DNA from: Tubulanus polymorphus
Taxonomy: Eukaryota; Nemertea; Palaeonemertea; Tubulaniformes; Tubulanidae
Direction of reading: 5' to 3'
DNA: 64,000 bases
NCBI RefSeq assembly: GCF_964204645.1
Contig: NC_134027.1
Location: 23,486,485 to 23,550,484 of the forward strand
Below are positions 15,030 to 54,203 of the stretch, piece by piece. The number at the start of each line of letters is the position of its first letter. The first letter of the stretch is position 1. The notes below the pieces were generated by a model, which saw only the letters and a list, made by a program, of their open reading frames with translations, did not search any database and was not told where the DNA came from. A program made the translations under genes and the position numbers.

Positions 15030-15062
<33 letters not shown>

Positions 15063-20341: not shown

Positions 20342-20439
20342 ACTAATGTATTCAGGAGTGAATTTTAATTGATCTCAAAACAAGATTATATTATATTATA
20401 TTCATTCTTTATTTTGCTAATAAACATGAATTAAATATA

Positions 20440-20930
20440 AATTACATAATTCTTTTTTTTATACATATATTAGCAAGGTAAACCTGTTAAAAGTTTTCAC
20501 TTGTAGCAACAGGTACCCAAATACACACTTCACTCTCACCCACACATTCATACTTTCGCATTCACACATGATTTTCTACTGCTACAGTGAAGGCATACAA
20601 AAATAGGTAAATAATAGTAAGATGATATAGGTACAGTTACATTGTTTGATTAATTCTTTGGGGCTTTTTTTTATTAATAATGATTAATAATTACTAATTA
20701 TGAATTTCTTATAAGCTGACTTAAAGATCTCTAGGGAAGGTGATGATTTGAAAATATTACTCATTTCATTCCAAAGTTTTTGGTCATTGTAACTAAGGAA
20801 ATTTCGGCTTAAGTTATTTCGGCAAAAGGGCAGTACAAAATAGTTTTTGTGGAAGAGAAAGTATTCTTCAAAAATTTAGAAAATCCTAGACTCATAATCA
20901 AATTCTGCGAAGTCATTTAAGGTCTTTTGC
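20440..20930 (-). mobile_element. LINE 3' remnant
   Basis: On the minus strand, SYNDQKLWNEMSNIFKSSPS is followed by LEIFKSAYKKFI, the LWN-SL-FK pattern that ends LINE ORFs. The 3' side is AT-rich with TATTA repeats. Confidence 0.5.
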
Positions 20931-23142: not shown

Positions 23143-23575
23143 AGTGACCTCCTTTTCTTATTGTTACAGATATGAAAACAACAGATTTCATCAATCAATC
23201 CTTCCTACAATGGTCAGTCTGACTGTAACTAGGCTGAGATCTATTGATCATATTTTAGAAAAGGTTTGTCTCTCATTCATTCAATCGTGTAACTGATATC
23301 TGTGAATAGTCTACAATCAACAGATACCACATTGAAATCTAATATTCTTTATTTCAGGCACAATTCCTGTTTACTGTGAAGTAAGATTGAGTCAAGCGCA
23401 ACGCTGTAGAAGTATCAGAGGAGGAGTATCGTAGGAGCAGCAGAGCAGGAGTATCGTAGGAGCAAGAGTATCGTAGGAGCAGCAGGAGTATCATAGGAGC
23501 AGCTGAATGAATCACAGAAGAGATAAGATAAGTAGTTTTAGAATTATGTGTTTATTCATACCACTTATTGATAGA

Positions 23576-24331
23576 GGAGTTGAAGATGTTCAGGACCAGA
23601 GTTCAGTTTATCTTCAAACAGACTAAAACTAAATGTAGAATCATTATAACGGTTATTGAATATATCTCCAGCAGGGATCTGTATCCATCTTCAGCTCACT
23701 TCACACACAGCTATAGATCAGAGTTCCTTACAGCGACCACTGAATCGACCTAATCATTACAACTGAAATAATGATAACGCATTCTATATGAACACATATG
23801 AAGCACAGCTGAAACCAAAGTGATAGAAAAATAGAAAGTTGTAAAATATTTTCTGACGCAGTTTGATTTGCGTCAGATTGTAACTGTAGAAGTTTCACTC
23901 ATTGTTTCAGTCTAATAGAGATTTAATTGATGTACATGTAACACTGACTGTGTAACACTGCAGTCATTTATTCACTTTTTCCTCCTCAGTTTGAAGAATG
24001 TTTGTTCTCTCATCTTCATTAGCCATAAGAATCATTCTCATCTGTGTAACTACAACATCGTAACATTTCTACTTATTCAATCATAGAGGGAATGAGTAGT
24101 ATGAGGTTTGGGTATGGAATGGGACAGGGTATGGTGTAGTTGACAGTTAGGGTAGGATAGGGTAATGTGATGAGGTAAGGTCGGTTGGATGATGCAGGGT
24201 TGTTTGATGTGGTTGGATTCGATGATGAGTTTAATATAGAACTGTTTGGGGGTAAGTGATGTAAGTGGTAGTGTACGGTGTGTATGTTCGGAGGGTGTAT
24301 GATAACAGATTGAAAGGTTGCTGGTAGAGGG
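23576..24331 (+). repeat. Inverted arm 1 of unit 1
   Basis: Pairs, as reverse complement, with 27791-28540. Shared landmarks include GTTCAGGACCAGAGTTCAG, GAATCATTATAACGGTTATT, TCACACACAGCTATAGATCA, GACGCAGTTTGATTTG, CATCGTAACATTTCTACTTA and GGTAGAGGG. Equivalent arms lie at about 30008-30765, 36489-37245 and 43727-44468. Confidence 0.85.
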
Positions 24332-24342
24332 TGGTTCAGTAG

Positions 24343-25567
24343 CATCCTCACTCACCAGGGCTTGGGTTGCTTCCTGCTGAAGCTCACGTCTACACAAACG
24401 CTGCCCGAAACTTTATCCATCGGTCTGTTGGAATACAAGAAATTATCCAGCCAATGAAATCAGGAAATATCCAGCCAATGAAAATTATGGAAATATACAT
24501 TATTCTTGTGTTGGACCCTCGGTAAGCGAAAACTCTATCGACCACCAGTGATGCCAGTCACAATGAGGTGTACATGTTTTACTGTTGGCAAATATCCTTC
24601 AATAAATTTTGATAAAGGATAAGTTGATGTCAGCAGCGGAGAATACAGAGTTCCGGATCGGGAAAATAACATCACAGGAAATCATTGTACCTGAGTTTGT
24701 CCACAGGTCAAGGGTCAAGGTCTAATCATGTGACCTGGCAGTGACTTATCTGCCCACACGGCAACCCACCCACTCTCCATCCGCCCGACCCCGTGCAGTG
24801 ACCTGTCTGCCCACACGGCAACCCACCCACTCTCCACCCGCCCGACCCCAGGCAGTGACCTGTCTGCCCACACAGCAACCCACCCACTCTCCACCCACCC
24901 GACCCCTGGCAGTGACCTGTCTGCCCACACGGCAACCCACCCACTCTCCACCCGCCCGACCCCAGGCAGTGACCTGTCTGCCCACACAGCAACCCACCCA
25001 CTCTCCACCCGCCCGACCCCTGGCAGTGACTTGTTCGCCCGGCAGTGGTCTAAAGCCTAGCCTTCATCAACACTGTGATTGGAGACAACTAGTTGCCGGG
25101 CAGTTTTCGGCGCATGAGAGCAACTGGCTGGATACAATCAGTGTGAGCTAGCTTACGATTGGTTAGCGTCGATCTATCTCCAGTTCCAGCCAGTTGCTCA
25201 TGTTCTACTTTTGAGCAACTTGTTGTACTCAGTTACTGTCATATTCGTCGATGTGAGCCATAATCAACAAAAACACATGGTTGCAACTGACTAAATCAAA
25301 GCAATTTGTCACGTGACTTGAGATGCCCTCAAGAATATTTGCTAGATAACCCATCTCAGATGCTGTCGATGTGTGCGCGCTATGGACTTAGCGACTGGCA
25401 TGAGCCATGCAGTTGCTTGTTTTCATTAGATGGGTACTCGCTCACTAGTAACTAGTTGTCTCTAGTTGCTTTGTCGAAGTACGCTTACTTTATAGACCTA
25501 TGAAGGAAGTTTCATCAGTGTTTGTGAGTTTCAGGGGAAGGCAACCAGACCCTGGCGAGTGAGGATG
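24343..25567 (+). mobile_element. 1.2-kb TIR element carrying the 57-bp minisatellite (unit 1)
   Basis: It begins CATCCTCACTCACCAGGG and ends with the complement GCGAGTGAGGATG. The inverted ends extend about 43 bp through TTGCTTCC/GGAAGGCAA to CTCAC/GTGAG. It interrupts inverted arm 1: arm 2 is continuous across the same point, and the arm resumes after 25567. Inside are the 57-bp array and a GCGATTGG-GACAACTAGTTGC segment related to the MITE at 57934. Equivalents: about 30776-31907, about 37257-38514, and a right-truncated copy from about 44476. Confidence 0.7.
24737..25042 (+). repeat. 57-bp minisatellite, about 5 units (unit 1)
   Basis: Unit: GGCAGTGACCTGTCTGCCCA, then CACGGCAACCCACCCACTCT, then CCACCCGCCCGACCCCT. 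The GC content is far above the surroundings. As 57 is 19 codons, open frames with 19-residue repeats occur on both strands; they are a by-product of the period, not genes. Confidence 0.92.
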
Positions 25568-27790
25568 TGTAATAGTGATGTTAGTATGGTATGTGTAAGG
25601 TAGGGGGCGTTGTGTGTAGAGTGTTAAGAATAGGATAAGAGTACAGTTAGAGGAATACGAAAGTGTAAGTTTGGGTAATGTGGGGTCAGGATGTTTGGTG
25701 TTGTTGAGGTGAGGGTGAATTCAGTAGAATTTATCCATGTCAAGTGTCCAAGTGGCAAATTTGGAAAATTATTTTTGAGTCATACCTAAGAAAATGGGCT
25801 TTTAAAATCATTTGACCAGTCTTATTAGATTGACTTAAGAACTAAAATGGTCTTACCCTGGTCTTAAGTTGTAAGATTGGCTATAGAACCTAAATGAGTT
25901 TAGACTGGTCTTAAGTTGTTAGATTGGCAATAGAACCAAAATGAGCGTAGACAGGTCTTTAGTTGTTAGATTATTGTTAGAACCAAAATCAGTTAGAACC
26001 AAAAATCAAAAAAGACTAAGTGGCAAATTTGGAAAAATGGATTCAGGTCTGATCCGTGTGATCCAGTTGACCTAGGATTATTTGATTAGAGTCAGACTCA
26101 TTGATTACGTAGGGGGTAATAGATGGAGCCACAGTTTGTGCTTTGAACAAAGGTGAGTGATGCTCTTGGCGTTTCACTCACCAGGAGAAAGTCCCCCCCC
26201 CATAACTTCTTTAGATAGAAATCTCCAGATAGAATTCTGTTTTTGTCTTATTTGTTTGTGTATATATGTCTGGAAATGGTGACATGGATGGTGATAGGAC
26301 AGTACAGCCTGGGTGATGTTGGGGTAGGGTAAGGTGATTCAGAGAAAGTGGTCCAGTCCGGACTGGCATTACCTCCTTCCCTTCCTCCTTCCCGCGCTTA
26401 CTATTCCACAATCTCTATATGAGATACATCGAGAATTATACATCGAGAATTATGCTATTGAAGATTGAATTCACCGATTTATTTAGGAATTGAAACTTGT
26501 TTCATTGAATAAATGTTACGGCAAATAAACAATATCATCGAACAATGATATGATTGTGATTGACCATAGTGAACCACTGCCCTAGTGCAGTTTTATGTCA
26601 CATAAAGCTTTTTTCCACTCGATACAACAGATGATAGTGCTACCAATCAGACTGCTTGTGTATGCCAAGTAATTTTTGTAGGGGACAAGCAAAATTTCAG
26701 ATATGCTTGCCCCCTGGGCAAGTGGATTTCATTCCTGGGACCCTGAAAAAGCACTGATTGAGATGGATTTAAACCCAGTTCAATAACTATATTTCCTATA
26801 TATTCACTTACCGCCTGGTGGTACTGATACAGAGCAAGGAGAGATAGAGAGAGAGAGAGCCATAAGAAAAATAAAGAACATGAAAAGAGTGGGGTCCGAG
26901 AGCAATTCGAAGGTTTAGAGTCCTGCACGCTTAGATGGCGGGCAGGGGTCTATTCCTACCTCGACTCATAAAGAAAAAAGATTGAAAAGAAAGGTGAGCT
27001 TAAAGCCACCAAGCACAAAAGTGGGGTCAAAAAGGTAGTCCACTACTGGCTTAGAGAGCGGGCAGTGGTCTATTCCTACCTCACGTGCTTAAAAATGTTT
27101 GCAAAAAATGGCAAATAAGAAAGTGTGTGAGAGTGAGAGAGAGGAGGTGCTGAGTTTCATGTATCACTGGGCGTAACGTGACAAATATAAGAAATAATTC
27201 ACAGAAAATCTTGAATAATTGTGTTGTGGGTTCAGAGTCTATTTCTCATCAGTTTGCTATTTGTAAAGCTTGTAGTCTGGTAAAAACTATTCAGAGATTT
27301 GTGAATCAGAAGATTTTGCCGTCATTTCCTTCATGAATCGTTCAATTGTTAAAATGAATCATGTGACACACATGTAAAATACTGTTACTGATTCGTCATC
27401 GTTTGATGGTGTCTTAATATTCAATATGTTGCAGGTATTGTCTCCTAGTATTTCACATGGAATTGAGGAGTAGTTTGAGGGATTGGGAGGGTTGGAGAAG
27501 CATTGAGATGTCTAAAGGGAGGAGGCTGAGAGATGGAGCGACCCCATCAATCACTCATGACGCTCTGTACTGTCCTAGCTCCACCCCTTATATCATATCA
27601 CATACCTCCCAACCTTCCACAGACACCACCCCCGACCTCACCCTCACCTCTACAACACCAAACATCCTGACCCCGCATTACCCAAACTTACACTTTAATA
27701 TTACTCTTACTGTACCTTACTCTATCCTTAACACTCTACACACACTGCCCCCTACCTTACACGTACCATACCAGCATCACACCTGTGCCG

Positions 27791-28540
27791 CCCTCTACCA
27801 GCAACTTTTCTCCATTTTCATACACCTCCTTAACTATACATCGTACACTACCACATACACCCACCCCAAATAGTTCTATATTAAACTGATCATCTAATCC
27901 AGTCATATCAAACAACCCTGCATCATCCAACCTGATCTTACCTTATCACATTGTCCTATCCTCCCCTAACGTGTCAACTCCCATACCCTGTCTCATTCCA
28001 TACCCAAGCGCCATACTCCTCATTCCCTCTATGATTGAATAAGTAGAAATGTTACGATGTTGTAGTTACACGGATAAGAATGATTCTTATCGCTAATGAA
28101 GATGAGAGAACAAACATTCTTCTTACTGAGGAGGAATAAGTGAATAAATGACTGCAGTGTTACACAGTCAGTGTTACATGTACATCAGTTATAACTCTAT
28201 TAGACTGAAACAATGAGTGAAACTTCTACAGTTACAATCTGACACAAATCAAACTGCGTCAGAAAACATTTTACAACTTTCTCATTTTCTATCACTTTGG
28301 TTTCTGATGTGCTTCATGTGTATTCATATAGAATGTGTTATCATTATTTCAGTTGTAATGATTAGGTTGATTCAGTGGTCGCTGTATGGAACTCTGATCT
28401 ATAGCTGTGTGTGAAGTGAGCTGAAGATGGATACAGATACTTGCTGGCGACAAATTCAATAACCGTTATAATGATTCTACATTTTGTTTTAGTCTTTTAG
28501 AAGATTAACTGAATTCTGGTCCTGAACATGTTTCAACTCC
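27791..28540 (+). repeat. Inverted arm 2 of unit 1
   Basis: Reverse complement of arm 1. The pairing extends further inward: 27630-27785 pairs with 25560-25735 on the far side of the 1.2-kb insertion. Equivalent arms: about 34154-34910 (unit 2) and about 41571-42322 (unit 3). Unit 4 has lost this arm. Confidence 0.85.
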
Positions 28541-28736
28541 ACATGATAACTGGTATGTGTATGACAACAGAATTTCAACAGTTTATTTCATGAATTTGAT
28601 AAATCTGTTATTTTCATTTCAGTGTCAATCTTTGCTGGGGAGTTGTAGAATCTGATATAGAACTGATTTTCACAGTCAGCTACACACATTAACGGTTTGT
28701 ATTACATGTGTATGGATACAATTTAAATAAATCACA

Positions 28737-28747
28737 CTAGTTCTGCC

Positions 28748-28782
<35 letters not shown>

Positions 28783-28868
28783 TAGTTCTGCCTCATCATC
28801 ATCATCATCTATGCCTCATCATCATCATCATCTTGTTCTGCCTCATCATCATCATCATCTAGTTCTGC

Positions 28869-28911
<43 letters not shown>

Positions 28912-28970
28912 TATCATCTAGTTCTGCATCCTCACCATCATCATCTAGTTCTGCCTCCTCCTCAGTAGCA
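28737..28970. repeat. TCATCA microsatellite / CTAGTTCTGCC minisatellite (unit 1)
   Basis: Runs of TCA are broken by CTAGTTCTGCCTC. On the minus strand this would read Asp/Glu runs with ELDDDD-EEA. In units 1 and 2 the frame is broken by variants such as CTATGCCTC. Equivalents: 35107-35450, 42524-42737 and 46437-46637. Confidence 0.9.
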
Positions 28971-29538
28971 GTGTGCATCCTGAGGAAGCAATCAGTCCTC
29001 CTGCAATCACATGTTGCCCGCTCTTAAGGAGGTCAGGTGACGTTGGGGCTTTAGTTCACCTCGGATTAGGCTTCTCAGTAACTATTTGAGTTTGGAGCTG
29101 CATCTTACCTGACTAGATTGGCTGACCAGCTTGTATCGTTAATGATTCTACATTTTGTTTTAACCTGTTAGGAGATGACCAATTACCAGAAGACCAGGGA
29201 TGACCAATTTACCAATTGCCAGGGATGACCAATTGCCAGGGATGACCAGAAATGACCAATGGCTAAGCAATGACCAGCGATTATAGATTGCCAGTATAAT
29301 TGTAAGATTGATTTTCTGTTTGTGAATGAACTTGAGAACAGTCACTGTTCTTTAACCCAATCAGTTACAGCCATGTTTTGATAAAATCTCTTGCACAATC
29401 ACCTCTAAACCTCTTACACAATCATTTCTATCTCATCTCTGTAATAAATACTCTTATTTTAACTCTCATCGGTCAAAACGTGGTTGTCATTGATGTTCAC
29501 AGAAACTGAAATCCCAGAATCTATTTTGTTATAATTAC

Positions 29539-32500
29539 AGTGACCTCCTTTTCTTATTGTTAGATACAAGCAGATTTCATCAATCAATCATTCCTTCAAG
29601 GCTGAGAACTATTAATCATCTTTTAGAAAGGGTTTGTCTCTCATTCATTCAATTGTGTAACTGATATCTGTGAATAGCCTACAATCAACAGATACCACAT
29701 TGAAATCTAATATTCTTTATTTCAGGCACAATTCCTGTTTACTGTGGTATGAAATAAGATTAATTCAAGCGCAACGCTGTAGGAGCATCAGAGGAGGAGT
29801 ATCGTAGGAGCAGCAGGAGTATCATAGGAGCATCAGAGGAGTGTCATAGGAGCAGCAGGAGTATCGTAGGAGGAGCAGGAGTATCGTAAGAGTTGCAGGA
29901 GTATCATAGGAGCAGCAGGAGTATCATAGGAGCAGCTGAATGCATCACAGAAGAGATAAGATAAGTAGTTTTAGAATTGTGATCATTCATACCCATTTAT
30001 TGATAGAGGAGTTGAAGATGTTCAGTACCAGAGTTCAGTTTATCTTCTAACAGACTAAAACAAAATGTAGAATCATTATAACGGTTATTGACTATATCTC
30101 CAGCAAGTATCTGTATCAATCTTGAGCTTGCTTCACACACAGCTATAGATCAGAGTTTCTTACAGCGACCACTGAATCAACCTAATCATTACACCTGAAA
30201 TAATGATAACACATTCTATATGAATACATATGAAGCACATCTGAAAACAAAGTGATAGAAAAATAGAAAGTTGTAAAATGTTTTCTGACGCAGTTTGATT
30301 TGTGTCAGATTGTAACTGTAGAAGTTTCACTCATTGTTTCAGTCTAATAGAGATATAACTGATGTACATGTAACACTGACTGTTAAACACTGCAGTCATT
30401 TATTCACTTATTCCTCCTCAGTTTGAAGAATGTTTGTTCTCTCATCTTCATTAGCGATAAGAATCATTCTCATTTGTGTAACTACAACATCGTAACATTT
30501 CTACTTATTCAAATCATAGAGGGAATGAGTAGTATGAGGTTTGGGTATGGAATGGGACAGGGTATGGTGTAGTTGACAGTTAGGGTAGGATAGGTTAATG
30601 TGATGAGATAAGGTCGGTTGGATGATGCAGGGTTGTTTGATGTGGTTGGATTCGATGATGAGTTTAATATAGAACTGTTTGGGGGAAAGTGATGTAAGTG
30701 GTAGTGTACGGTGTGTATGTTCGGAGGGTGTATGATAATGGATTGAAAGGTTGCTGGTAGAGGGTGGTACAGTAGCATCCTCACTCACCAGGGCTCGGGT
30801 TGCTTCCTGCTGAAGCTCATGTCTACACAAACGCTGCCCACAACTTTATCCATCGGTCTGTTGGAACACAAGGAATTATCAGCCAATGAAAACAGAGGAA
30901 TTGTCCAGCCAATGAAATTATGGAAATATACCACCTGACCCACCCGCCTGACCCCTGGCAGTGACCTGTCTGCCCACACGGCAACCCACCCACTCTCCAT
31001 CCGCCTGACCCCTTGCAGTGACCTGTCTGCCCACACGGCAACCCACCAACTCTCCACCCGCCCGACCCCTGGCAGCTACCTGTTCACCCACACGGCAACC
31101 CACCCACTCTCCACCCGCCTGACCCCTGGCAGTGACCTGTCTGCCCACACGGCAACCCACCCACTCTCCATCCGCCTGACCCCTTGCAGTGACCTGTCTG
31201 CCCACACGGCAACCCACCCACTCTCCACCCGCCCGACCCCTGGCAGCTACCTGTTCACCCACACGGCAACCCACCCACTCTCCACCCGCCCGACCCCTGG
31301 CAGTGACCTGTCTGCCCACACGGAAACCCACCCACTCTCCACCCGCCCGACCCCTGGCAGTGACCTGTTCGCCCGGCGGTGGTCTAAAGCCTAGCCTTCA
31401 TCGACACTGCGATTGGAGACAACTAGTTGCCAGGCATTTTTCGGCGCATGAGAGCAGCTGGCTGGATACAATCAGTGTGAGCTACCTTACGATTGGTTAG
31501 CGCCCATCTGTCTCCAGTTCCAGCCAGTTACTCATGTTCTACTATTGTGCAACTAGTTGTACTCAGTTGCTTTCATATCCGTCGATGTGAACGCTCCATA
31601 ATCAAAAACACATGGTTGTAACTGACTAATACAAAGCAACGAGTCACATGACTTGAGATGCCTTGAGAATATTTGCTAGATAACACATCTCAGATGCTGT
31701 CGATGTGTGCGCGCTATGGACCTAGCGACCGGCATGAGCCATACAGTTGCTGGTTTTCATTAGATGGGTACTCGCTCACTAGCAACTAGTTGTCTCTAGT
31801 TGCTTTGTCGAAGTATGCTTAGCTTTATAGACCTGTGAAGGAAGTTTCATCAGTGTTTGTGAGTTTCAGCGGAAGGCAACCAGACCCTGACCCTGGCGAG
31901 TGAGGATGTGTAGTAGTGATGCTGGTATGGTATGTGTAAGGTAGGGGGCGGTGTGTGTAGAGTGTTAAGGATAGGGTAAGGTACAGTTAGAGGAATACGA
32001 AAGTGTAAGTTTGGGTAATGTGGGGTCAGGATGTTTGGTGTTGTTGAGGTGAGGGTGAATTCAGTAGAATTTATCCATGTCAAGTGTCCAAGTGGCAAAT
32101 TTGGAAAATTATTTTTGAGTCATACCTAAGAAAATGGGCTTCTAAAATCATTTGACCAGTCTTATAAGATTGACTTAAGAACTAAAATGGTCTTACCCTG
32201 GTCTTAAGTCGTAAGATTGGCTATAGAACCAAAATGAGTTTAGATTGGTCTTAAGTTGTAAGATTGGCTATAGAACCTAAATGAGTTTAGACTGGTCTTA
32301 AGTTGTTAGCTTGGCAATAGAACCAAAATGAGCGTAGACAGGTCTTAAGTTGTTAGATTATTGTTAGAACCAAAATCAGTTAGAACCAAAAATCAAAAAG
32401 ACTAAGAGGCAAATTTGGAAAAATGGATTCAGGTCTGATCCGTGTGATCCAGTTGACCTAGGATTATTTGATTAGAGTCAGACTCATTGATTACGTAGGG

Positions 32501-35118
32501 GGTAATAGATGGAGCCACAGTTTGTGCTTTAAACAATGGTGAATGAGGCTCTTGGCTTTTCACTCACCAGGAGAAAGTCCCCCCCCCCATAACTTCTTTA
32601 GATAGAAATCTCCATATAGAATTCTGTTTTTGTCTTATTTGTCTGTGTATATATGTCTGGAAATGGTGACATGGATGGTGATAGGACAGTACGGCCTGGG
32701 TGATGTTGGGGTAGGCTAATGTGATTCAGAGAAAGTGGTATTACCTCCTTCCCTTCCTCCTTCCCGCGCTTACTATTCCACAATCTCTATATGAGATACA
32801 TCGAGAATGATGCGATTGAAGATTGAATTCATCGATTCATTTAGGAATTGAAACTTGTTTCATTGAATAAATGTTACTGCAAATAAACAATATCATCAAA
32901 CAATGATATGATTGTGATTGACCATAGTGAACCACTGCCCTAGTGCAGTTTTATGTCACAAAAAGCTTTTTTCCACTCGATACAACAGATGATAGTGCTA
33001 CCAATCAGACTGCCTGTGTATGCAAGTAATTTTTGTAGGTGACAAGCAAAATTTCAGATATGCTTGCCCCCTGGGCAAGTGGATTTCATTCCTGGGACCC
33101 TGTAAAAGCACTGATTGAGATGGATTTAAACCCAGTTCAATTACTATATTTCCTATATATTCACTTACCGCCTGGTGGTACTGATACAGAGCAAGGAGAG
33201 ATAGAGAGAGAGAGAGCCATAAGAAAAAGAAAGAACATGAAAAGAGTGGGGTCCGAGAGCAATTCGAAGGTTTAGAGTCCTGCACGCTTAGATGGCGGGC
33301 AGGGGTCTATTCCTACCTCGACTCAAAAAGAAAAAAGATTGAAAAGATTGGTGAGCTTAAAGCCACCAAGCACAAAAGTGGGGTCAAAAAGGTAGTCCAC
33401 TACTGGCTTAGAGAGCGGGCAGTGGTCTATTCCTACCTCACGTGCTTAAAAATGTTTGCAAAAAATGGCAAATAAGAAAGTGTGTGAGAGTGAGAGTGAG
33501 AGAGAGGAGGTGCTGAGTTTCATGTATCACTGGGCGTAACGTGACAAATATAAGAAATAATTCACAGAAAATCTTGAATAATTGTGTTGTGGGTTCAGAG
33601 TCTATTTCTCATCAGTTTGCTATTTGTAAAGCTTGTAGTCTGGTAAAAACTATTCAGAGATTTGTGAATCAGAAGATTTTGCCGTCATTTTCTTCATGAA
33701 TCGTTCAATTGTTAAAATGAATCATGTGACACACATGTAAAATACTGTTACTGATTCGTCATCGTTTGATGGTGTCTTAATATTCAATATGTTGCAGGTA
33801 TTGTCTCCTAGTATTTCACATGGAATTGAGGAGTAGTTTGAGGGATTGGGAGGGTTGGAGAAGCATTGAGATGTCTAAAGGGAGGAGGCTGAGAGATGGA
33901 GCGACCCCATCAATCACTCATGACGCTCTGTACTGTCCTAGCTCCACCCCTTATATCACATCACATACCTCCCAACCTTCCACAGACACCACCCCCGACC
34001 TCACCCTCACCTCTACAACACCAAACATCCTGACCCCGCATTACCCAAACTTACACTTTAATATTACTCTTACTGTACCTTACTCTATCCTTAACACTCT
34101 ACACACACTGCCCCCTACCTTACACATACCATACCAGCATCACACCTGTGCCGCCCTCTACCAGCAACTTTTCTCCATTTTCATACACCTCCTTAACTAT
34201 ACATCGTACACTACCACATACACCCACCCCAAATAGTTCTATATTAAACTGATCATCTAATCCAGTCATATCAAACAACCCTGCATCATCCAACCTGATC
34301 TTACCTTATCACATTGTCCTATCCTCCCCTAACGTGTCAACTCCCATACCCTGTCTCATTCCATACCCAAGCGCCATACTCCTCATTCCCTCTATGATTG
34401 AATAAGTAGAAATGTTACGATGTTGTAGTTACACGGATAAGAATGATTCTTATCGCTAATGAAGATGAGAGAACAAACATTCTTCTTACTGAGGAGGAAT
34501 AAGTGAATAAATGACTGCAGTGTTACACAGTCAGTGTTACATGTACATCAATTATAACTCTATTAGACTGAAACAATGAGTGAAACTTCTACAGTTACAA
34601 TCTGACACAAATCAAACTGCGTCAGAAAACATTTCACAACTTTCTCATTTTCTATCACTTTGGTTTCTGATGTGCTTCATGTGTATTCATATAGAATGTG
34701 TTATCATTATTTCAGTTGTAATGATTAGGTTGATTCAGTGGTCGCTGTATGGAACTCTGATCTATAGCTGTGTGTGAAGTGAGCTGAAGATGGATACAGA
34801 TACTTGCTGGCGACAAATTCAATAACCGTTATAATGATTCTACATTTTGTTTTAGTCTTTTAGAAGATTAACTGAATTCTGGTCCTGAACATGTTTCAAC
34901 TCCACATGATAACTGGTATGTGTATGACAACAGAATTTCAACAGTTTATTTCATGAATTTGATAAATTGAAGAATCTGTTATTTTCATTTCAGTGTCAAT
35001 CTTTGCTGGGGAGTTGTAGAATCTGATATAGAACTGATTTTCACAGTCAGCTACACACATTTACGGTTTGTATTACATGTGTATGGATACAATTTAAATA
35101 AATCACACTAGTTCTGCC

Positions 35119-35174
<56 letters not shown>

Positions 35175-35359
35175 TAGTTCTGCCTCATCATCATCATCAT
35201 CTATGCCTCATCATCATCATCATCATCATCTTGTTCTGCCTCCTCATCATCATCATCATCTAGTTCTGCCTCATCATCATCATCATCTATGCCTCATCAT
35301 CATCATCATCATCATCTTGTTCTGCCTCCTCATCATCATCATCATCATCTAGTTCTGCC

Positions 35360-35400
<41 letters not shown>

Positions 35401-36020
35401 TAGTTCTGCATCCTCACCATCATCATCTAGTTCTGCCTCCTCCTCAATGGCAGTGTGCATCCTGAGGAAGCAATCAGTCCTCCTGCAATCACAGATTGCC
35501 CGCTCTTAAGGAGGTCAGGTGACATTGGGGCTTTAGTTCACCTCGGTTTAGGCTTCTCAGTAACTGTTTGAGTTTGGAGCTGCATCTTACCTGACTAGAT
35601 TGGCTGACCAGCTTGTATCATTAATGATTCTACATTTTGTTTTAACCTGTTAGGAGATGACCAATTACCAAAACACCAGGGATGACCAATTTACCAATTG
35701 CCAGGGATGACCAATTGCCAGGGATGACCAGAAATGACCAATGGCTAAGCAATGACCATCGATTATAGATTGCCAGTATAATTGTAAGATTGATTTTCTG
35801 TTTGTGAATGAACTTGAGAACAGTCACTGTTCTTTAACCCAATCAGTTACAGCCATGTTTTGATAAAATCTCTTGCACAATCACCTCTAAACCTCTTACA
35901 CAATCATTTCTATCTCATCTCTGTAATAAATACTCTTATTTTAACTCTCATCGGTCAAAACGTGGTTGTCATTGATGTTCACAGAAACTGAAATCCCAGA
36001 ATCTATTTTGTTATAATTAC
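29539..36020 (+). repeat. Macro-repeat unit 2 (about 6.5 kb)
   Basis: Same order of parts as unit 1. The 57-bp array (30957-31372) has about 7 units, including a variant CAGCTACCTGTTCACCC that recurs at intervals. The left half to about 33.3 kb is almost identical to unit 3, including an extra GAGTGTCATAGGAGCAG in the small minisatellite. The right half is almost identical to unit 1. There is no insertion at GTGCTTTAAACAATGG (about 32526-32541), the site occupied in unit 3. Confidence 0.92.
30957..31372 (+). repeat. 57-bp minisatellite, about 7 units (unit 2)
   Basis: Same unit as at 24737. Two unit types alternate: one with CAGTGACCTGTCTGCCC and one with CAGCTACCTGTTCACCC. Confidence 0.92.
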
Positions 36021-37463
36021 AGTGACCTCCTTTTCTTATTGTTAGATACAAGCAGATTTCATCAATCAATCATTCCTTCAAGGCTGAGAACTATTAATCA
36101 TCTTTTAGAAAGGGTTTGTCTCTCATTCATTCAATTGTGTAACTGATATCTGTGAATAGCCTACAATCAACAGATACCACATTGAAATCTAATATTCTTT
36201 ATTTCAGGCACAATTCCTGTTTACTGTGGTATGAAGTAAGATTGAGTCAAGCGCAACGCTGTAGGAGCATCAGAGGAGGAGTATCGTAGGAGCAGCAGGA
36301 GTATCATAGGAGCATCAGAGGAGTGTCATAGGAGCAGCAGGAGTATCGTAGGAGCAGCAGGAGTATCGTAAGAGTTGCAGGAGTATCATAGGAGCAGCAG
36401 GAGTATCATAGGAGCAGCTGAATGCATCACAGAAGAGATAAGGTAAGTAGTTTTAGAATTGTGATCATTCATACCCATTTATTGATAGAGGAGTTGAAGA
36501 TGTTCAGTACCAGAGTTCAGTTTATCTTCTAACAGACTAAAACAAAATGTAGAATCATTATAACGGTTATTGACTATATCTCCAGCAAGTATCTGTATCC
36601 ATCTTCAGCTCACTTCACACACAGCTATAGATCAGAGTTACTTACAGCGACCACTGAATCAACCTAATCATTACACCTGAAATAATGATAACACATTCTA
36701 TATGAATACATATGAAGCACATCTGAAAACAAAGTGATAGAAAAATAGAAAGTTGTAAAATGTTTTCTGACGCAGTTTGATTTGTGTCAGATTGTAACTG
36801 TAGAAGTTTCACTCATTGTTTCAGTCTAATAGAGATATAACTGATGTACATGTAACACTGACTGTTAAACACTGCAGTCATTTATTCACTTATTCCTCCT
36901 CAGTTTGAAGAATGTTTGTTCTCTCATCTTCATTAGCGATAAGAATCATTCTCATTTGTGTAACTACAACATCGTAACATTTCTACTTATTCAAATCATA
37001 GAGGGAATGAGTAGTATGAGGTTTGGGTATGGAATGGGACAGGGTATGGTGTAGTTGACAGTTGGGGTAGGAAAGGGTAATGTGATGAGGTAAGGTCGGT
37101 TGGATGATGCAGGGTTGTTTGATGTGGTTGGATTCGATGATGGTTTAATATAGAACTGTTTGGGGGTAAGTGATGTAAGTAGTAGTGTACGGTGTGTATG
37201 TTCGGAGGGTGTATGATAATGGATTGAAAGGTTGCTGGTAGAGGGTGGTACAGTAGCATCCTCACTCACCAGGGCTCGGGTTGCTTCCTGCTGAAGCTCA
37301 TGTCTACACAAACGCTGCCCACAACTTTATCCATCGGTCTGTTGGAACACAAGGAATTATCAGCCAATGAAAACTGAGGAATTATCCAGCCAATGAAAAC
37401 AGAGGAATTGTCCAGCCAATGAAATTATGGAAATATACCACCTGACCCACCCGCCTGACCCCT

Positions 37464-37990
37464 GGCAGTGACCTGTCTGCCCACACGGCAACCCACCCAC
37501 TCTCCATCCGCCTGACCCCTTGCAGTGACCTGTCTGCCCACACGGCAACCCACCCACTCTCCACCCGCCCGACCGCTGGCAGCTACCTGTTCACCCACAC
37601 GGCAACCCACCCATTCTCCACCCGCCTGACCCCTTGCAGTGACCTGTCTGCCCACACGGCAACCCACCCACTCTCCACCCGCCCGACCGCTGGCAGCTAC
37701 CTGTTCACCCACACGGCAACCCACCCATTCTCCACCCGCCTGACCCCTGGCAGTGACCTGTCTGCCCACACGGCAACCCACCCACTCTCCATCCGCCTGA
37801 CCCCTTGCAGTGACCTGTCTGCCCACACGGCAACCCACCCACTCTCCACCCGCCCGACCCCTGGCAGCTACCTGTTCACCCACACGGCAACCCACCCACT
37901 CTCCACCCGCCCGACCCCTGGCAGTGACCTGTCTGCCCACACGGAAACCCACCCACTCTCCACCCGCCCGACCCCTGGCAGTGACCTGTT
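37464..37990 (+). repeat. 57-bp minisatellite, about 9 units (unit 3)
   Basis: The longest of the four arrays. A two-unit higher-order block (one TGACCTGTCTGCC unit plus one AGCTACCTGTTCACC unit) appears duplicated relative to unit 2. Confidence 0.92.
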
Positions 37991-39142
37991 CGCCCGGCGG
38001 TGGTCTAAAGCCTAGCCTTCATCGACACTGCGATTGGAGACAACTAGTTGCCAGGCACTTTTCGGCGCATGAGAGCAGCTGGCTGGATACAATCAGTGTG
38101 AGCTACCTTACGATTGGTTAGCGCCCATCTGTCTCCAGTTCCAGCCAGTTACTCATGTTCTACTCTTGTGCAACTAGTTGTACTCAGTTACTGTCATATC
38201 TGTCGATGTGAACGCTCCATAATCAAAAACACATGGTTGTAACTGACTAATACAAAGCAACGAGTCACATGACTTGAGATGCCTTGAGAATATTTGCTAG
38301 ATAACACATCTCAGATGCTGTCGATGTGTGCGCGCTATGGACCTAGCGACCGGCATGAGCCATACAGTTGCTGGTTTTCATTAGATGGGTACTCACCCAC
38401 TAGTTGCCTCTAGTTGCTTTGTCGAAGTATGCTTAGCTTTATAGACCTGTGAAGGAAGTTTCATCAGTGTTTGTGAGTTTCAGGGGAAGGCAACCAGACC
38501 CTGGCGAGTGAGGATGTGTAGTAGTGATGCTGGTATGGTATGTGTAAGGTAGGGGGCGGTGTGTGTAGAGTGTTAAGGATAGGGTAAGGTACAGTTAGAG
38601 GAATATGAAAGTGTAAGTTTGGGTAATGTGGGGTCAGGATGTTTGGTGTTGTTGAGGTGAGGGTGAATTCAGTAGAATTTATCCATGTCAAGTGTCCAAG
38701 TGGCAAATTTGGAAAATTATTTTTGAGTCATACCTAAGAAAATGGGCTTCTAAAATCATTTGACCAGTCTTATAAGATTGACTTAAGAACTAAAATGGTC
38801 TTACCCTGGTCTTAAGTCGTAAGATTGGCTATAGAACCAAAATGAGTTTAGATTGGTCTTAAGTTGTAAGATTGGCTATAGAACCTAAATGAGTTTAGAC
38901 TGGTCTTAAGTTGTTAGCTTGGCAATAGAACCAAAATGAGCGTAGACAGGTCTTAAGTTGTTAGATTATTGTTAGAACCAAAATCAGTTAGAACCAAAAA
39001 TCAAAAAGACTAAGAGGCAAATTTGGAAAAATGGATTCAGGTCTGATCCGTGTGATCCAGTTGACCTAGGATTATTTGATTAGAGTCAGACTCATTGATT
39101 ACGTAGGGGGTAATAGATGGAGCCACAGTTTGTGCTTTAAAC

Positions 39143-39930
39143 CACAGGGGTTTGGCGATGGGCTTGGATTTTATTTCCGGGTTGTTGATAATCTCGCGAG
39201 AATGGCGCTAAATATGAACTGCGAATAAATTCAAAATATCACGGAAATACCTTGTGTTTATATTGTTTATTTATCCGCTATAAAGTTCTGATAAACAATT
39301 GGTCGTTAAGAATCATTATCAGACGGTCGTCACGCTTTACTATATAAAATCACAAGGGATGAAACGCCAGGCCTCCGCTGTACTTAAATTTTCAGCCAGA
39401 AAGTTGGGACAGTCACGTGACATTCTGATGACGTCATCGCATTTAAAACTTCAACACGAAAAGTTAACATATTCACAGACCGATATCAATTGTCAGATTA
39501 TGATTCATATGAAATAAATAACTTATAAGTAATAAATTATGACGAAATATATAATTCATAGTAAAAAAATGCATTTGAATGTAAGTTATTCTCAAATATT
39601 TTTCGTATCATAGTTTCCATCTTATATGCTTCAGGTTCGCGTTCAGTCAAATAAGAAGCGTTAAGTCACGTGACTGTCCCAACTTTCTGGCTGGCACAAC
39701 TCTGAAGGCGTTTCATCCCTTGTTCTTTTATATAGTAGCGTGACGACCGTCTGATAATGATTCTTAACGACCAATTGTTTATCGAAACTTTATAGCGGAT
39801 AAATAAACAATATAAACACAAGGTATTTCCGTGATATTTTGAATTTATTCGCAGTTCATATTTAGCGCCATTCTCGCGAGATTATCAACAACCCGGAAAT
39901 AAAATCCAAGCCCATCGCCAAACCCCTGTG
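39143..39930. mobile_element. hAT-type foldback MITE, 788 bp
   Basis: It starts CACAGGGGTTTGGCGATGGG and ends with the complement. The inverted arms are nearly 300 bp each (39143-about 39440 and about 39640-39930), with a short AT-rich centre. It is flanked by an 8-bp duplication CTTTAAAC (39135-39142 and 39931-39938). Units 1 and 2 show the empty site, with a single CTTTRAAC. There is no transposase, so it moved in trans. Confidence 0.93.
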
Positions 39931-40596
39931 CTTTAAACAATGGTGAATGATGCTCTTGGCTTTTCACTCACCAGGAGAAAGTCCCCCCCCCATAACTTCT
40001 TTAGATAGAAATCTCCATATAGAATTCTGTTTTTGTCTTATTTGTCTGTGTATATATGTCTGGAAATGGTGACATGGATGGTGATAGGACAGTACAGCCT
40101 GGGTGATGTTGGGGTAGGCTAATGTGATTCAGAGAAAGTGGTATTACCTCCTTCCCTTCCTCCTTCCCGCGCTTACTATTCCACAATCTCTATATGAGAT
40201 ACATCGAGAATGATGCGATTGAAGATTGAATTCATCGATTCATTTAGGAATTGAAACTTGTTTCATTGAATAAATGTTACTGCAAATAAACAATATCATC
40301 AAACGATATGATTGTGATTGACCATAGTGAGCCACTGCCCTAGTGCAGTTTTATGTCACAAAAAGCTTTTTTCCACTCGATACAACAGATGATAGTGCTA
40401 CCAATCGGAATGCCTGTGTAGGGCAAGTAATTTTTGTAGGTGACAAGCAAAATTTCAGATATGCTTGCCCCCTGGGCAAGTGGATTTCATTCCTGGGACC
40501 CTGTAAAAGTACTGATTGAGATGGATTTAAACCCAGTTCAATTACTATATTTCCTATATATTCACTTACCGCCTGGTGGTACTGATACAGAGCAAG

Positions 40597-40635
<39 letters not shown>

Positions 40636-42517
40636 ATAAGAAAAAGAAAGAACATGAAAAGAGTGGGGTCCGAGAGCAATTCGAAGGTTTAGAGTCCTGC
40701 ACGCTTAGATGGCGGGCAGGGGTCTATTCCTACCTCGACTCAAAAAGAAAAAAGATTGAAAAGATTGGTGAGCTTAAAGCCACCAAGCACAAAAGTGGGG
40801 TCAAAAAGGTAGTCCACTACTGGCTTAGAGAGCGGGCAGTGGTCTATTCCTACCTCACGTGCTTAAAAATGTTTGCAAAAAATGGCAAATAAGAAAGTGT
40901 GTGAGAGTGAGAGTGAGAGAGAGGAGGTGCTGAGTTTCATGTATCACTGGGCGTAACGTGACAAATATAAGAAATAATTCACAGAAAATCTTGAATAATT
41001 GTGTTGTGGGTTCAGAGTCTATTTCTCATCAGTTTGCTATTTGTAAAGCTTGTAGTCCGGTAAAAACAATTCAGAGATTTGTGAATCAGAAGATTTTGCC
41101 GTCATTTTCTTCATGAATCGTTCAATTGTTAAAATGAATCATGTGACACACATGTAAAATACTGTTACTGATTCGTCATCGTCTGATGGTGTCTTAATAT
41201 TCAATATGTTGCAGGTATTGTCTCCTAGTATTTCACATGGAATTGAGGAGTAGTTTGAGGGATTGGGAGGGTTGGAGAAGCATTGAGATGTCTAAAGGGA
41301 GGAGGCTGAGAGATGGAGCGACCCCATCAATCACTCATGACGCTCTGTACTGTCCTAGCTCCACCCCTTATATCACATCACATACCTCCCAACCTTCCAC
41401 AGACACCACCCCCGACCTCACCCTCACCTCTACAACACCAAACATCATGACCCCGCATTACCCAAACTCACACTTTAATATTACTCTTACTGTACCTTAC
41501 TCTATCCTTAACACTCTACACACACCGCCCCCTACCTTACACATACCATACCAGCATCACACCTGTGCCGCCCTCTACCAGCAACTTTTCTCCATTATCA
41601 TACACCTCCCTAACTATACATCGTACACTACCACATACACCCACCCCAAACTGTTCTATATTAAACTGATCATCTAATCCAGCCATATCAAACAACCCTG
41701 CATCATCCAACCTGATCTTACCTTATCACATTGTCCTATCCTCCCCTAACGTGTCAACTCCCATACCCTGTCTCATTCCATACCAAAACGCCATACTCCT
41801 CATTCCCTCTATGATTGAATAAGTAGAAATGTTACGATGTTGTTGTTACACGGATAAGAATGATTCTTGTCGCTAATGAAGATGAGAGAACAAACATTCT
41901 TCTTACCGAGGAGGAATAATTGAATAAATGATTGCAGTGTTAAACAGTCAGTGTTACATGAACATCAGTTATATCTCTTTTAGACTGAAGCAATGAGTGA
42001 AAATTCTACAGTTACAATCTGACACAAATCAAACTGCGTCAGAAAACATTTTACAACTTTCTCATTTTCTATCACTTTGGTTTCAGATGTGCTTCATGTG
42101 TATTCATATAGAATGTGTTATCATTATTTCAGTTGTTATGATTAGATTGATTCAATGGTCGCTGTAAGGAACTCTGATCTATAGCTGTGTGTGAAGTGAG
42201 CTGAAGATGGATACAGATACTTGCTGGCGACAAATTTAATAACCATTATAATGATTCTGCATTTAGTTTTAGTCTGTTAGAAGATTTACTGAATTTTGGT
42301 CCTGAACATGTTTCAACTCCATACGATAGCTGGTATGTGTATGACAACAGAATTTCAACAATTTATTACATGAATTTGATAAATAAGAATCTGTTATTTT
42401 CATTTCAGTGTCAATCATTGCTGGGGAGTTGTAGAATCTGATATAGAACTGATTTTCACAGTCAGCTACACACATTAACGGTATGTATTACATGTGTATG
42501 GATACAATTTAAATAAA

Positions 42518-42751
42518 TCACACTAGTTCTGCCTTATCATCGTCATCATCATCTAGTTCTTTATCCTCGTCATCATCATCATCATCTAGTTCTGCCTCCT
42601 CCTCATCATCATCATCTAGTTCTGCCTCCTCCTCATCATTATCATCACCATCTAGTTCTGCCTCCTCCTCATCATCATCATCATCATAGTTTAGTTCTGC
42701 CTCCTTATCATCATCATCTAGTTCTGCCTCCTCCTCAGTAGCAGTGTGCAT
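42518..42751 (-). other. Asp/Glu-rich open frame over the TCATCA block (unit 3)
   Basis: From ATG at 42751 the frame reads MHTATEEEAELDDDD and further EEEAELDDD units to a stop at 42518, 77 codons. A similar 72-codon frame with the same start is kept in unit 4 (46433-46651). In units 1 and 2 it is disrupted. An AG (TTGCTTCCTCAG) precedes the ATG. I regard it as a repeat-derived frame unless expression is shown. Confidence 0.25.
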
Positions 42752-44685
42752 CCTGAGGAAGCAATCAGTCCTCCTGCAATCACAGATTGCCCGCTCTTAA
42801 GGAGGTCAGGTGACGTTGGGTCTCTAGTTCACCTCGATTTAGGCTTCTCAGTAACTGTTTGAGTTTGGAGCTGCATCTTACCCGACTAGATTGGCCGACC
42901 AGCTTGTATCGTTTGTGATTATACATTTTGTTTTAACCTGTTAGGAGATGACCAATTACCAGAAGACCAGGGATGACCAATTAACCAATTGCAAGATGAC
43001 CAGAAATGACCAATGGCTAAGCAATGACCAGCGATTACAGATTGCCAGTATAATTGTGTGATTGATTTTCTGTTTGTGAATGAACTTGAGAACAGTCACT
43101 GTTCTTTAATCCAATCAGTTACGGCCATGCTTTGATAAAATCTCTTGCACAATCACCTCTAAACCTCTTGCACAATCACCTCTAAACCTCTTACACAATC
43201 ATTTCTATCTCATCTCTGTAATAAATACTCTTATTTTAACTCTCATCAGTCAAAACGTGGTTGTCATTGATGTTCACAGAAACTGAAATCCCAGAATCTA
43301 TTTTGTTATAATTACAGTGACCTCCTTTTCTTATTGTTAGATACAAGCAACAGATTTCATCAATCAATCCTTCCTTCAAGGCTGAGAACTATTAATCATC
43401 TTTTAGAAAGGGTTTGTCTCTCATTCATTCAATTGTGTAACTGATATCTGTTAATAGTCTACAATCAACAGATACCACATTGAAATCTAATATTCTTTAT
43501 TTCAGGCACAATTCCTCTTTACTGTGGTATGAAATAAGATTGAGTCAAGCGCAATGCTGTAGGAGCATCAGAGGAGGAGTATCGTTGGAGCAGCAGGAGT
43601 ATCGTAAGAGTAGCAGGAGTATCATAGGAGCAGCAGGAGTATCATAGGAGCAGCTGAATGAATCACAGAAGAGATAAGATAAGTAGTTTTAGAATTGTGA
43701 TCATTCATACCCATTTATTGATAGAAGAGTTGAAGATGTTCAGTACCAGAGTTCAGTTTATCTTCTAACAGACTAAAACTAAATGTAGAATCATTATAAC
43801 GGTTATTGAATATATCTCCAGCAAGTATCTGTATCAATCTTTAGCTCACTTCACACACAGCTATAGATCAGAGTTCCTTACAGCGACCACTGAATCAACC
43901 TAATCATTACAACTGAATTAATGATATGAATACACATGAAGCACATCTGAAACCAAAGTGATAGAAAATGAGAAAGTTGTAAAATGTTTTCTGACGCAGT
44001 TTGATTTGTGTCAGATTGTAACTGTAGAAGTTTCACTCATTGTTTCAGTCTAATAGAGGTATAACTGATGTACATGTAACACTGACTGTTAAACACTGCA
44101 GTCATTTATTCACTTATTCCTCCTCAGTTTGAAGAATGTTTGTTCTCATCTTCATTAGCGATAAGCATCATTCTCATCTGTGTAACTACAACATCGTAAC
44201 ATTTCTACTTATTCAATCATAGAGGGAATGAGTAGTATGAGGTTTGGGTATGGAATGGGACAGGGTATGGGGTAGTTGACAGTTAGGGTAGGATAGGGTA
44301 ATGTGATGAGGTAAGGTAGGTCGGATGATGCAGGGTTGTTTGATGTGTTTGGATTTGATGATGAGTTTAATATAGAACTGTTTGAGGGTAAGTGATGTAA
44401 GTGGTAGTGTAAGGTGTGTATGTTCGGAGGGTGTATGATAATGGATTGAAAGGTTGCTGGTAGAGGGTGGTACAGTAGCATCCTCACTCACCAGGGCTCG
44501 GGTTGATTCCTGCTGAAGCTCACATCTACACAAACGCTGCCCGCAACTTTATCCATCGGTCTGTTGGAACACAAGGAATTATCAGCCAATGAAAACCGAG
44601 GAATTGTCCAGCCAATGAAAACAGAGGAATTATTCAGCCAATGAAATTATGGAAATAAACAGCCTGACCCACCCACCTGACCCCT

Positions 44686-44997
44686 GGCAGTGACCTGTCT
44701 GCCCACACGGCAACCCACCCACTCTCCATCCGCCTGATCCCTTGCAGTGACCTGTCTACCCACACGGCAAATCCATCCACTCTCCACCCGCCCGACCCCT
44801 GGCAGTGACCTGTTCACCCACACGGCAACCCACCCACTCTCCACCCGCCCGACCCCTGGCAGTGACCTGTCTGCCCACACGGCAACCCACTCAGTCTCCA
44901 CCCGCCCGACTCCTGGCAGTGACCTGTCTGCCCACACGGCAACCCACCCACTCTCCACCCGCCCGACCCCTGGCAGTGACCTGTTCGCCCGGCGGTG
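44686..44997 (+). repeat. 57-bp minisatellite, about 5 units (unit 4)
   Basis: Same unit as in the other arrays, with more private substitutions. It ends in the shared CTGTTCGCCCGGCGGTGGTC. Confidence 0.92.
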
Positions 44998-45256
44998 GTC
45001 TTAAGCCTAGCCTTCATTGACACTGCGATTGGAGACAACTAGTTGCCGGGCAGTTTTCGGCGCATGAGAGCAACTGGCTGGATACAATCAGTGTGAGCTA
45101 GCTTACGATTGGTTAGCGTCCATCTGTCTCCAGTTCCAGCCAGTTGCTCATGTTCTACTTTTGAGCAACTAGTTGTACTCAGTTACTGTCATATCCGTCG
45201 ATGTGAACGCTCCATAATCAAAACACATGGTTGTAACTGACTAATACAAAGCAACG

Positions 45257-45744
45257 CAGGGGCGGATCCAGGGGGATGAGTAGACAGCATTGGAAGGAAA
45301 TTTAAGGGCACCCTTCTGATCTTAGGGCACACCCAGTATCCAGGTCAATGCGAGCGCCGAAAACTTAAAAGGCAAAGTGCCCTTTTCTTCGACATTTTCC
45401 GCGTATAGTGCCCTCTTCTAAAGTACGAGTGCCCCCTTTAGTCCTCCCTGAAAATGCAAGGACAAGGTGCCCTCATCTAAAGCATGAGTACCCCTTGAAA
45501 AAGGAAAGTGCCCTTTTTAATTTATCATGATTAAAGGCCTAATATCAAATATGATTATCTCTCCTCACTTTCTCGGCAGCAGTATTTACCGATTAATTTT
45601 ATAATTATGCCCGGATTCCGGACACGGAATTAGCGGTTGCTGAAATAATGCCGTCAAAAATATTGCCGGTGAAATTTCGAAGGGCACTTAAAACTTCTAG
45701 ACCGTATTCGGCAATACGGCTAATACGGTCTGGATCCGCCTCTG
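45257..45744. mobile_element. hAT-type MITE, 488 bp
   Basis: Ends CAGGGGCGGATCCAG and CTGGATCCGCCTCTG. It is flanked by a 5-bp duplication CAACG (45252-45256 and 45745-45749). Units 2 and 3 have the uninterrupted GCAACGAGTCACATGAC. The inside has several GTGCCCTTTT / AAGTGCCC phrases, like the remnants at about 53020-53220 in PSMD7. No coding capacity. Confidence 0.9.
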
Positions 45745-47190
45745 CAACGAGTCACATGACTTGAGATTCCTTGAGAATATTTGCTAGATAACACATCTCA
45801 GATGCTGTCGATGTGTGCGCGCTATGGACCTAGCGACCGGCATGAGCCATACAGTTGCTGGTTTTCATTAGATGGGTACTCGCTCACTAGCAACTAGTTG
45901 TCTCTAGTTGCTTTGTCGAAGTATGCTTAGCTTGGATAAGAGTACAGTTAGAGGAAAAAGAACGTGTAAGTTTGGGTAATGTGGGGTCAGGATGTTTGGT
46001 GTTGTTGAGGTGAGGGTGAATTCAGTAGAATTTATCCATGTCAAGTGTCCAAGTGGCAAATTTGGAAAATTATTTTTGAGTTATACCTAAGAAAATGGGC
46101 TTTTAAAATCATTTGACCAGTCTTATTAGATTGGCTAAAGAACTAAAATGGTCTGAGCCTGGTCTTAAATTAGATTAGATTGGCAATAGAACCAAAATGA
46201 GCGTAGACTGGTCTTAAGTTGTTAGATTATTGTTAAAATCAAAAAGACTATGATATGAAATGGTGACATGGATGGTGATATGACAACAGAATTTGAAATA
46301 AGAATCTGTTATTTTTATTTCAGTGTCAATCATTGCTGGGGAGTTGTAGAATCTGATATAGAACTGATTTTCACAGTCAGCTACACACATTAACGGTATG
46401 TATTACATGTGTATGGATACAATTTAAATAAATCACACTAGTTCTGCCTTATCATCGTCATCATCATCTAGTTCTGCATCCTCGTCATCATCATCATCAT
46501 CTAGTTCTGCCTCATCATCATCATCATCATCTAGTTCTGCATCCTCGTCATCATCATCTAGTTCTGCCTCCTCCTCATCATCATCATCTTCTAGTTCTGC
46601 CTCCTCATCATAATCATCTAGTTCTGCCTCCTCCTCAGTAGCAGTGTGCATCCTGAGGAAGCAATCAGTCCTCCTGCAAGCACAGCGTTTGGAGCTGCAT
46701 TTTACCTGACTAGATTGGCTGACCAGCTTGTATCGTTTATGATTCTACATTTTGTTTTAACCTGTTAGGAGATGACCAATTACCAGAACACCAGGGATGA
46801 CCAATTGCCAGGGATGACCAGAAATGACCAATGGCTAAGCAATGACCAGCGATTACAGATTGCCAGTATAATTGTATGATTGATTTTCTGTTTGTGAATG
46901 AACTTGAGAACAGTCACTGTTCTTTAATCCTATCAGTTACAGCCATGTTTTGGTAAAATCTCTTGCACAATCACCTCTAAACCTCTTACACAATCACTTC
47001 TATCTCATCTCTTTAATAAATACTCTTATTTTAACTCTCACCAAATAAAAACGTGGTTGTCATTGATGTTCACAGAAACTGAAATCCCAGAATCTATTTT
47101 GTAAACCTGAATAAATGTATTTATTATTGTGTTGTGTTGTTTATTCAGCGCGATCTGTGGTGATTCAATCACTTGATCCGCTCAAGTTTT

Positions 47191-48326: not shown

Positions 48327-48331
48327 TTTTT

Positions 48332-48480
48332 AATGTTAACTCCCTCCAAAATTCTGGATCCGATGTTGTCTAAAATGGTTGATTTTAAACTTTGTTTCAT
48401 CATTTCACTAAACTTGTTTAAATCCTCGATTGTCAATCTTCCATATCCGAAACCCGGATCCAGAATTTTGGAATGTTAAC
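48332..48480. mobile_element. Small palindromic MITE
   Basis: Inverted ends CCAAAATTCTGGATCCG (48346) and complement (to 48471), within a 9-bp direct repeat AATGTTAAC at 48332-48340 and 48472-48480. The left side has five extra bases (TCCCT). No coding capacity. Confidence 0.65.

Positions 48481-50683: not shown

Positions 50684-54203
<3,520 letters not shown>

Follow-up and report, generated by a model that had tools for sequence, protein, structure and literature searches.

The window, that is, the whole 64,000-nt stretch of Tubulanus polymorphus DNA analysed here (C3:23486485-23550484 of a 267.8-Mb genome in 77 contigs; coordinates below are window positions), contains at approximately 21.73-47.15 kb on the + strand a gene-like locus with four long tandem units. 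With modest confidence, this locus is interpreted as a member of an apparently noncoding RNA polymerase II long-hairpin gene family, one member of which has been internally amplified. Each member would run from a promoter through a body to a polyadenylation region, the body holding a variable loop enclosed by an inverted repeat with arms of about 0.5-0.77 kb. The units are designated U1-U4, their left types La, Lb, and Lc, their right types Rx, Ry, and Rz, and the family loci L with a number. The joining of the terminal block to a point early in the body would have led to tandem copying of the interior, and a later unequal crossover, within the units at about 33.5 kb, would have copied an Rx-Lb block, the outcome being one transcription unit with seven hairpin arms. 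Through pairing of its arms, the + strand RNA would form a long double-stranded hairpin like those of hairpin RNA (hpRNA) loci, and this duplex would be the functional part, most likely a Dicer substrate. Transcription, splicing, duplex formation, and Dicer processing with an output of small interfering RNAs are all predicted; what bears on possible transcription as one RNA through both arms is the sequence signals, the CpG profile, and a strand lean in the arms. The principal features of the locus are as follows:

21726..21790, + strand: promoter-like block with ETS-like ACTTCCGG, YY1-like CCGCCATATTG, and a splice-donor-like site
23095..23142, + strand: 5' segment that precedes U1 and occurs in single-copy paralogues; not repeated at the starts of U2-U4
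23143..29538, + strand: U1, left La and right Rx, from self-comparison and alignment
29539..36020, + strand: U2, left Lb and right Rx, with the switch between 33349 and 33641
36021..43315, + strand: U3, left Lb and right Ry, with a private insertion
43316..47102, + strand: U4, internally deleted, no right arm
47068..47145, + strand: terminal block with acceptor-like TTCACAG, a putative last exon, AATAAA at 47110-47115, and a GT-rich stretch

The family loci were found with unit parts, the promoter region, and the terminal region as genome queries. Seventeen close loci, including that of the window, were detected on 8 contigs; the unit, which the original prediction had proposed to check for uniqueness, thus has 16 dispersed close relatives. 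A promoter block and a terminal block were paired one to one in all 17 loci. The elements of the promoter-like block follow in the order ACTTCCGG...CCGCCATATTGAA...TTTG|GTAAG, two of them being motifs that we take to be ETS-like and YY1-like, and exon 1 would end at 21784. The 28-nt pattern at 21762-21789 gave 17 genome matches with up to three mismatches (14 exact and 3 with one mismatch), and its reversed control gave none. GGTAAG was intact in 17/17 loci. The promoter-like block and donor are near-invariant, whereas the bodies diverge, and the block can still be made out in diverged members (C6:2.167 Mb, C2:20.78 Mb, and C8:11.888 Mb). At the other end, AATAAA was present in 16 of the 17 loci. 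The terminal-region search returned 40 matches, namely the 17 close loci, 20 more diverged 3' ends (C3, 9; C6, 10; C2, 1), and three partial matches of 35 bp; the latter are the window array's own unit joints, where just the first 35 bp of the terminal block reappear. Since the unit carries neither the promoter-like block nor the full terminal block, the array lies between one start and one end; the unit begins downstream of the promoter-like block and stops within the terminal block, upstream of AATAAA, and so represents a gene-like locus cut down to its interior. The locus at C6:21.4 Mb contains 1.0-kb direct repeats (91%) spaced 1.65 kb apart, so internal growth is not limited to the window locus. 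The 17 loci lie nearer to contig ends than expected by chance (Kolmogorov-Smirnov p = 5e-5; p = 7.5e-4 after loci within 1 Mb were merged to 14), as calculated from approximate midpoints and with contig ends equated with chromosome ends. The genome also has exact matches to let-7, with a mir-10-family Rfam match about 0.5 kb from it, and to miR-317, at whose site no Rfam match was obtained; the cnidarian miR-2022 had no match at up to one mismatch, and the animal is by these markers probably a protostome.

Terminal blocks of a second subfamily recur at C3:0.44-1.30 Mb (9) and C6:0.63-2.20 Mb (10). Four of the eight spacings between the C3 blocks were 44.0-45.6 kb, which suggests very large tandem units. 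Upstream of one second-subfamily locus, L035:1-2330 contains about seven tandem exon-intron-like units of about 270 bp each; in one unit inspected by eye, each of the three forward frames is interrupted by stops.

The inverted arms of the window locus are located as follows:

23576..24340, + strand: U1 left arm
27783..28540, - strand: U1 right arm
30008..30772, + strand: U2 left arm
34146..34903, - strand: U2 right arm
36490..37253, + strand: U3 left arm
41563..42320, - strand: U3 right arm
43727..44475, + strand: U4 left arm, partnerless within U4

The arms of U1-U3 are about 760 bp long and 91-92% matched, with a loop of about 3.4-4.3 kb. Both arms were found in 16 of the 17 close loci, and the inverted repeat is retained in three second-subfamily loci and in the old member L045, which was found via its promoter block. 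Inverted repeats able to form duplex RNA, as in hpRNA loci, are present with arms of 0.5-0.77 kb, whose pairing reaches 84-95% by Watson-Crick pairs and 90-97% with G-U pairs (20 loci). The mean arm identity in 16 family-1 loci was 0.9334 within loci versus 0.9257 (standard deviation 0.0011) between loci, the within-locus mean being reached in 0/20000 permutations, and the within-locus identity exceeded the between-locus mean in 18/21 pairs. Double changes without intermediates were observed, some of them transversions, with several transversion-bearing ones in L034; they would favour arm-to-arm gene conversion, compensating changes being also possible, and either or both processes may uphold the arm match. 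In conservation, the arms rank with the best of the internal parts. The two arms of L045 are 85-88% identical to each other (87.7% in a second comparison). Its left arm is 82-83% identical to the window left arms, its right arm 74-75% to the right arms, and crosswise values are 76-78%, while the second comparison gave 84.2% and 79.0% to the same-side arms of U1. Alignable loop pieces of L045 showed about 66-78% identity to the window and 62-77% to the loop pieces of L034, so the left arm appears conspicuously conserved and the right arm less so.

Where the arms mismatch, both carry G/T on the + strand more often than A/C in 21/21 arm pairs (568 versus 328; 151 versus 106 when counted by column, p = 0.006), and in 20/20 loci pairs, counting G-U, are more numerous for the + strand RNA than for the - strand RNA; the two results are one kind of data seen twice, and, the copies being related, 21/21 and 20/20 are not independent trials. 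Transcription-linked mutation or selection on pairing could produce the lean, and each would require a + strand transcript. Paired arms of this kind would serve as an internal test for strand bias linked to transcription.

At the window locus, the CpG observed/expected ratio fell from 1.19 in the promoter to 0.46 in the body and was 0.99 in the 3' flank. In 7 of the 16 paralogues, which were measured in the same way, the promoter values were 0.99-1.25 and the body values 0.45-0.57, with 0.72-1.31 in the 3' flanks (6 measurable). TpG/CpA was elevated alongside CpG depletion. The 22-kb bin, within the body and holding an inserted repeat, had a value of 0.93. A CpG loss of this kind is treated in PMC8857923 as a trace of invertebrate gene body methylation. 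The window locus resembles that pattern in CpG loss and TpG gain over the presumed transcription unit with a spared promoter, and differs in that the pattern is read from base composition alone, the body is apparently noncoding, and the neighbouring PSMD7-like gene is unaffected.

Self-comparison bore out the four tandem units over 23143-47102 that the original prediction had described; the proposed unit size of 6.4 kb holds for U1 and U2, and not for U3 (7.3 kb) and U4 (3.8 kb). U4 lacks approximately the equivalent of 26.0-28.6 kb, including the right arm. A plain assembly duplicate is unlikely as the units are about 0.8-5% different and U3 has a private insertion. The private variants GAGTGTCATAGGAGCAG and CAGCTACCTGTTCACCC were indeed confined to U2 and U3, and CTATGCCTC to U1 and U2, at the positions predicted, while a shorter text described near 32740/40145 was visible only as short alignment gaps. 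A right-half type thought to be shared by U3 and U4 was recovered in the TCATCA block, where CTTATCATCGTCATC occurs only in these two units, and did not extend to the whole right end, in which U4 differs from U3 at 34 of 751 sites and from U1 at 33 of 722.

Among U1-U3, 355 variable sites were counted; 31 of them (U1 and U3 alike, or all three different) were set aside, leaving 324 informative sites. U2 is nearest to U3 on the left and to U1 on the right. The best single switch falls between U2 positions 33349 and 33641, in agreement with the predicted 33.3-33.9 kb, and fits 299/324 informative sites, a number equalled by 0/5000 shuffles. To the left of the switch, 223/237 sites unite U2 with U3 and 14 unite U1 with U2, and to the right, 76/87 sites unite U1 with U2 and 11 unite U2 with U3. 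The arm trees gave the same groupings, with U2+U3 in the left-arm tree (support 0.96) and U1+U2 in the right-arm tree (0.99); the right arms of U1-U3 form one group (0.93), and the U1 left arm was not grouped with the left arms of U2-U4. After masking of tandem repeats, the Rx-Lb block copies differ from each other at 15/1949 sites (0.77%) in the right part and 32/2930 sites (1.09%) in the left part, compared with 145/2953 and 66/1964 sites (3.4-4.9%) in the unduplicated halves. The similar ages of both block parts fit a single unequal crossover between mid-units, and such an event is supported as an account of the U2 mosaic; under the alternative of two separate conversions, their ages would have to coincide by chance. 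The mid-unit duplication of an ancestral row L1-R1-L2-R2, with R1-L2 copied, was therefore upheld by the block comparison; because U4 is a separate lineage, the ancestor probably had three units (La-Rx, Lb-Ry, and Lc-Rz) instead of two. The array presents a clear case of unequal crossover within a gene-like body, the crossover being localised to 0.3 kb.

Several observations weigh against the long-hairpin gene interpretation. The acceptor-like CACAG precedes the presumed last exon in only 11/17 loci, and L015, the closest relative in one tree, has no AATAAA, so splicing and the exact ends are weakly inferred; together with the right arm of L045, which is no better conserved than the alignable loop pieces, these findings temper our confidence. 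The locus at C10:11.1 Mb has one arm only. Three of the 21 pairs (U3, L032, and L033) were not above the between-locus mean, and the own right arm was the best match to the left arm in only 6/16 loci. The double changes with transversions would fit gene conversion with no RNA function required, and the G/T lean may be a mutational strand asymmetry. All 43 matches in a right-arm search were in family loci and no non-family match was found as a possible target (40/112 candidates scored; matches of about 21 nt would escape). Some 1-kb bins outside the body are likewise low in CpG (4 kb, 0.62; 20 kb, 0.39; 57 kb, 0.63), and those covering the PSMD7-like gene (50-52 kb) show no depletion (0.85-1.55). 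A fuller version, in which the family would be old, housekeeping-like, gene-body-methylated, and chromosome-end-biased, with the duplex under selection and the hairpin output raised by interior copying between one promoter and one polyadenylation site, is put forward only tentatively. If true, a near-invariant promoter combined with a hairpin of such age would suggest that endogenous long double-stranded RNA has been in lasting use in another animal lineage.

A non-autonomous mobile-element family, its ends bearing promoter and polyadenylation signals and the array having arisen inside one copy, appears rather improbable. Seventeen dispersed copies with both ends and many small nested elements would be in keeping with it, as would the nearly common starting point of the match to the window promoter region (21726-21731) in 8/17 loci; yet the arms are internal, no inverted match between the outer ends was seen by eye, and CpG depletion follows the body. 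Inverted repeats at the ends, expected of foldback or terminal-inverted-repeat elements, were not found among the loci, whose homology runs well past the arms on both sides. The 5' flanks are common to different distances among the loci, and 3' flank similarity varies by locus pair in extent and in its (lower) identity, with no sharp 3' limit; these varied extents are better explained by segmental duplications of some age than by an element that moves with fixed ends.

A host gene for intron-processed small RNAs (small nucleolar RNA or microRNA), in which the inverted repeat would be incidental, seems somewhat less probable again. No Rfam match at gathering score was found in the window, and a loose-threshold search of 21700-29600 gave 13 weak matches, none at gathering score and 11 of them in the TCATCA repeat; the housekeeping-like promoter, the invariant splice donor, and conserved intron-like pieces would suit such a host gene, whereas the high conservation of the arms would not. 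A protein-coding family with short, unread exons is very improbable. An open reading frame (ORF) of 150-173 aa is present in U3 and L015; when this single long ORF was compared across copies, the frame was open for only 28-96 aa in 19 other readable copies (24 sequences examined), and it was rejected as a coding gene. A candidate short exon was replaced in L026-L028, and no Pfam match was obtained in the forward frames of L015, window positions 14001-23502, and L045, the array itself being outside the scan.

Among known systems, palindromes with arm-to-arm gene conversion occur on the human Y chromosome, and macrosatellites are reshaped by unequal crossover. The window locus is similar in that arms of the same locus are closer on average and the unit is a mosaic with a mid-unit switch; it differs in its short arms, the inverted repeat inside a gene-like unit, and an array without the unit's ends. 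Large tandem units at one locus (four units) are as in macrosatellites, and the unit is not restricted to one or a few loci, as shown by the 17 close loci and 20 diverged terminal blocks. A limited literature search returned nothing on intragenic macrosatellites or multicopy palindromic hairpin long noncoding RNAs. The best-known hairpin-RNA loci are those of Drosophila, many of them young and fast-changing. PMC10317233 describes Drosophila hpRNA transcripts as spliced with defined ends and the loci as forming tandem clusters of varying copy number, with dispersed copies and arm duplication; hp-CG4068 has 20 copies in D. melanogaster and 9 in D. simulans. Compared with the loci covered there (hp-CG4068, hp-tHMG, and hp-pncr009), the window locus is alike in tandem, local, and dispersed amplification and in local arm duplication. 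It differs in its loop of several kb, in its promoter, near-invariant across an old family, and in that no target gene was found. The hpRNA locus would be its closest match in working; the window locus is not classed as a member because no target was found and small RNAs are predicted only.

The further features within the array are as follows:

24737..25034, + strand: 57-bp minisatellite in the U1 loop
30940-31368, 37447-37989, 44669-44984: further minisatellite arrays
25049..25487, strand not assigned: dispersed stretch within the unit, about 440 bp long and with short inverted ends
39143..39926, strand not assigned: U3-private insertion of about 0.78 kb with long inverted ends, CpG not depleted

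The U3 insertion is flanked by a short duplication (judged by eye). Being private and not CpG-depleted, it would be later than the unit duplication, and the CpG observed/expected ratio of its bin (1.19) suggests that it is probably young. A relative of the 25049-25487 stretch, matching U1 and U2, is located at 57997-58344.

The window also contains tandem single-ORF genes for rhodopsin-family receptors (7tm_1) at 453-1472 and 6668-7702, with DNA 84% alike over 1184 bp, and the C-terminal part of a PSMD7/RPN8-like proteasome subunit gene at 50684-51199 on the - strand. A 33-bp minisatellite at 57042-57496 lies within an ORF of 179 aa, for which no Pfam match was obtained. A diverged repeat pair (76-81%) at 19330-20349 and 47187-48336 stands on either side of the gene-like locus; between 47191 and 48327, the latter copy interrupts the conserved 3' flank. 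On the 5' side, the U1 region is adjoined by a 167-bp piece (22928-23094), which has many near-identical dispersed copies elsewhere, mostly as inverted pairs about 0.3-0.4 kb apart.

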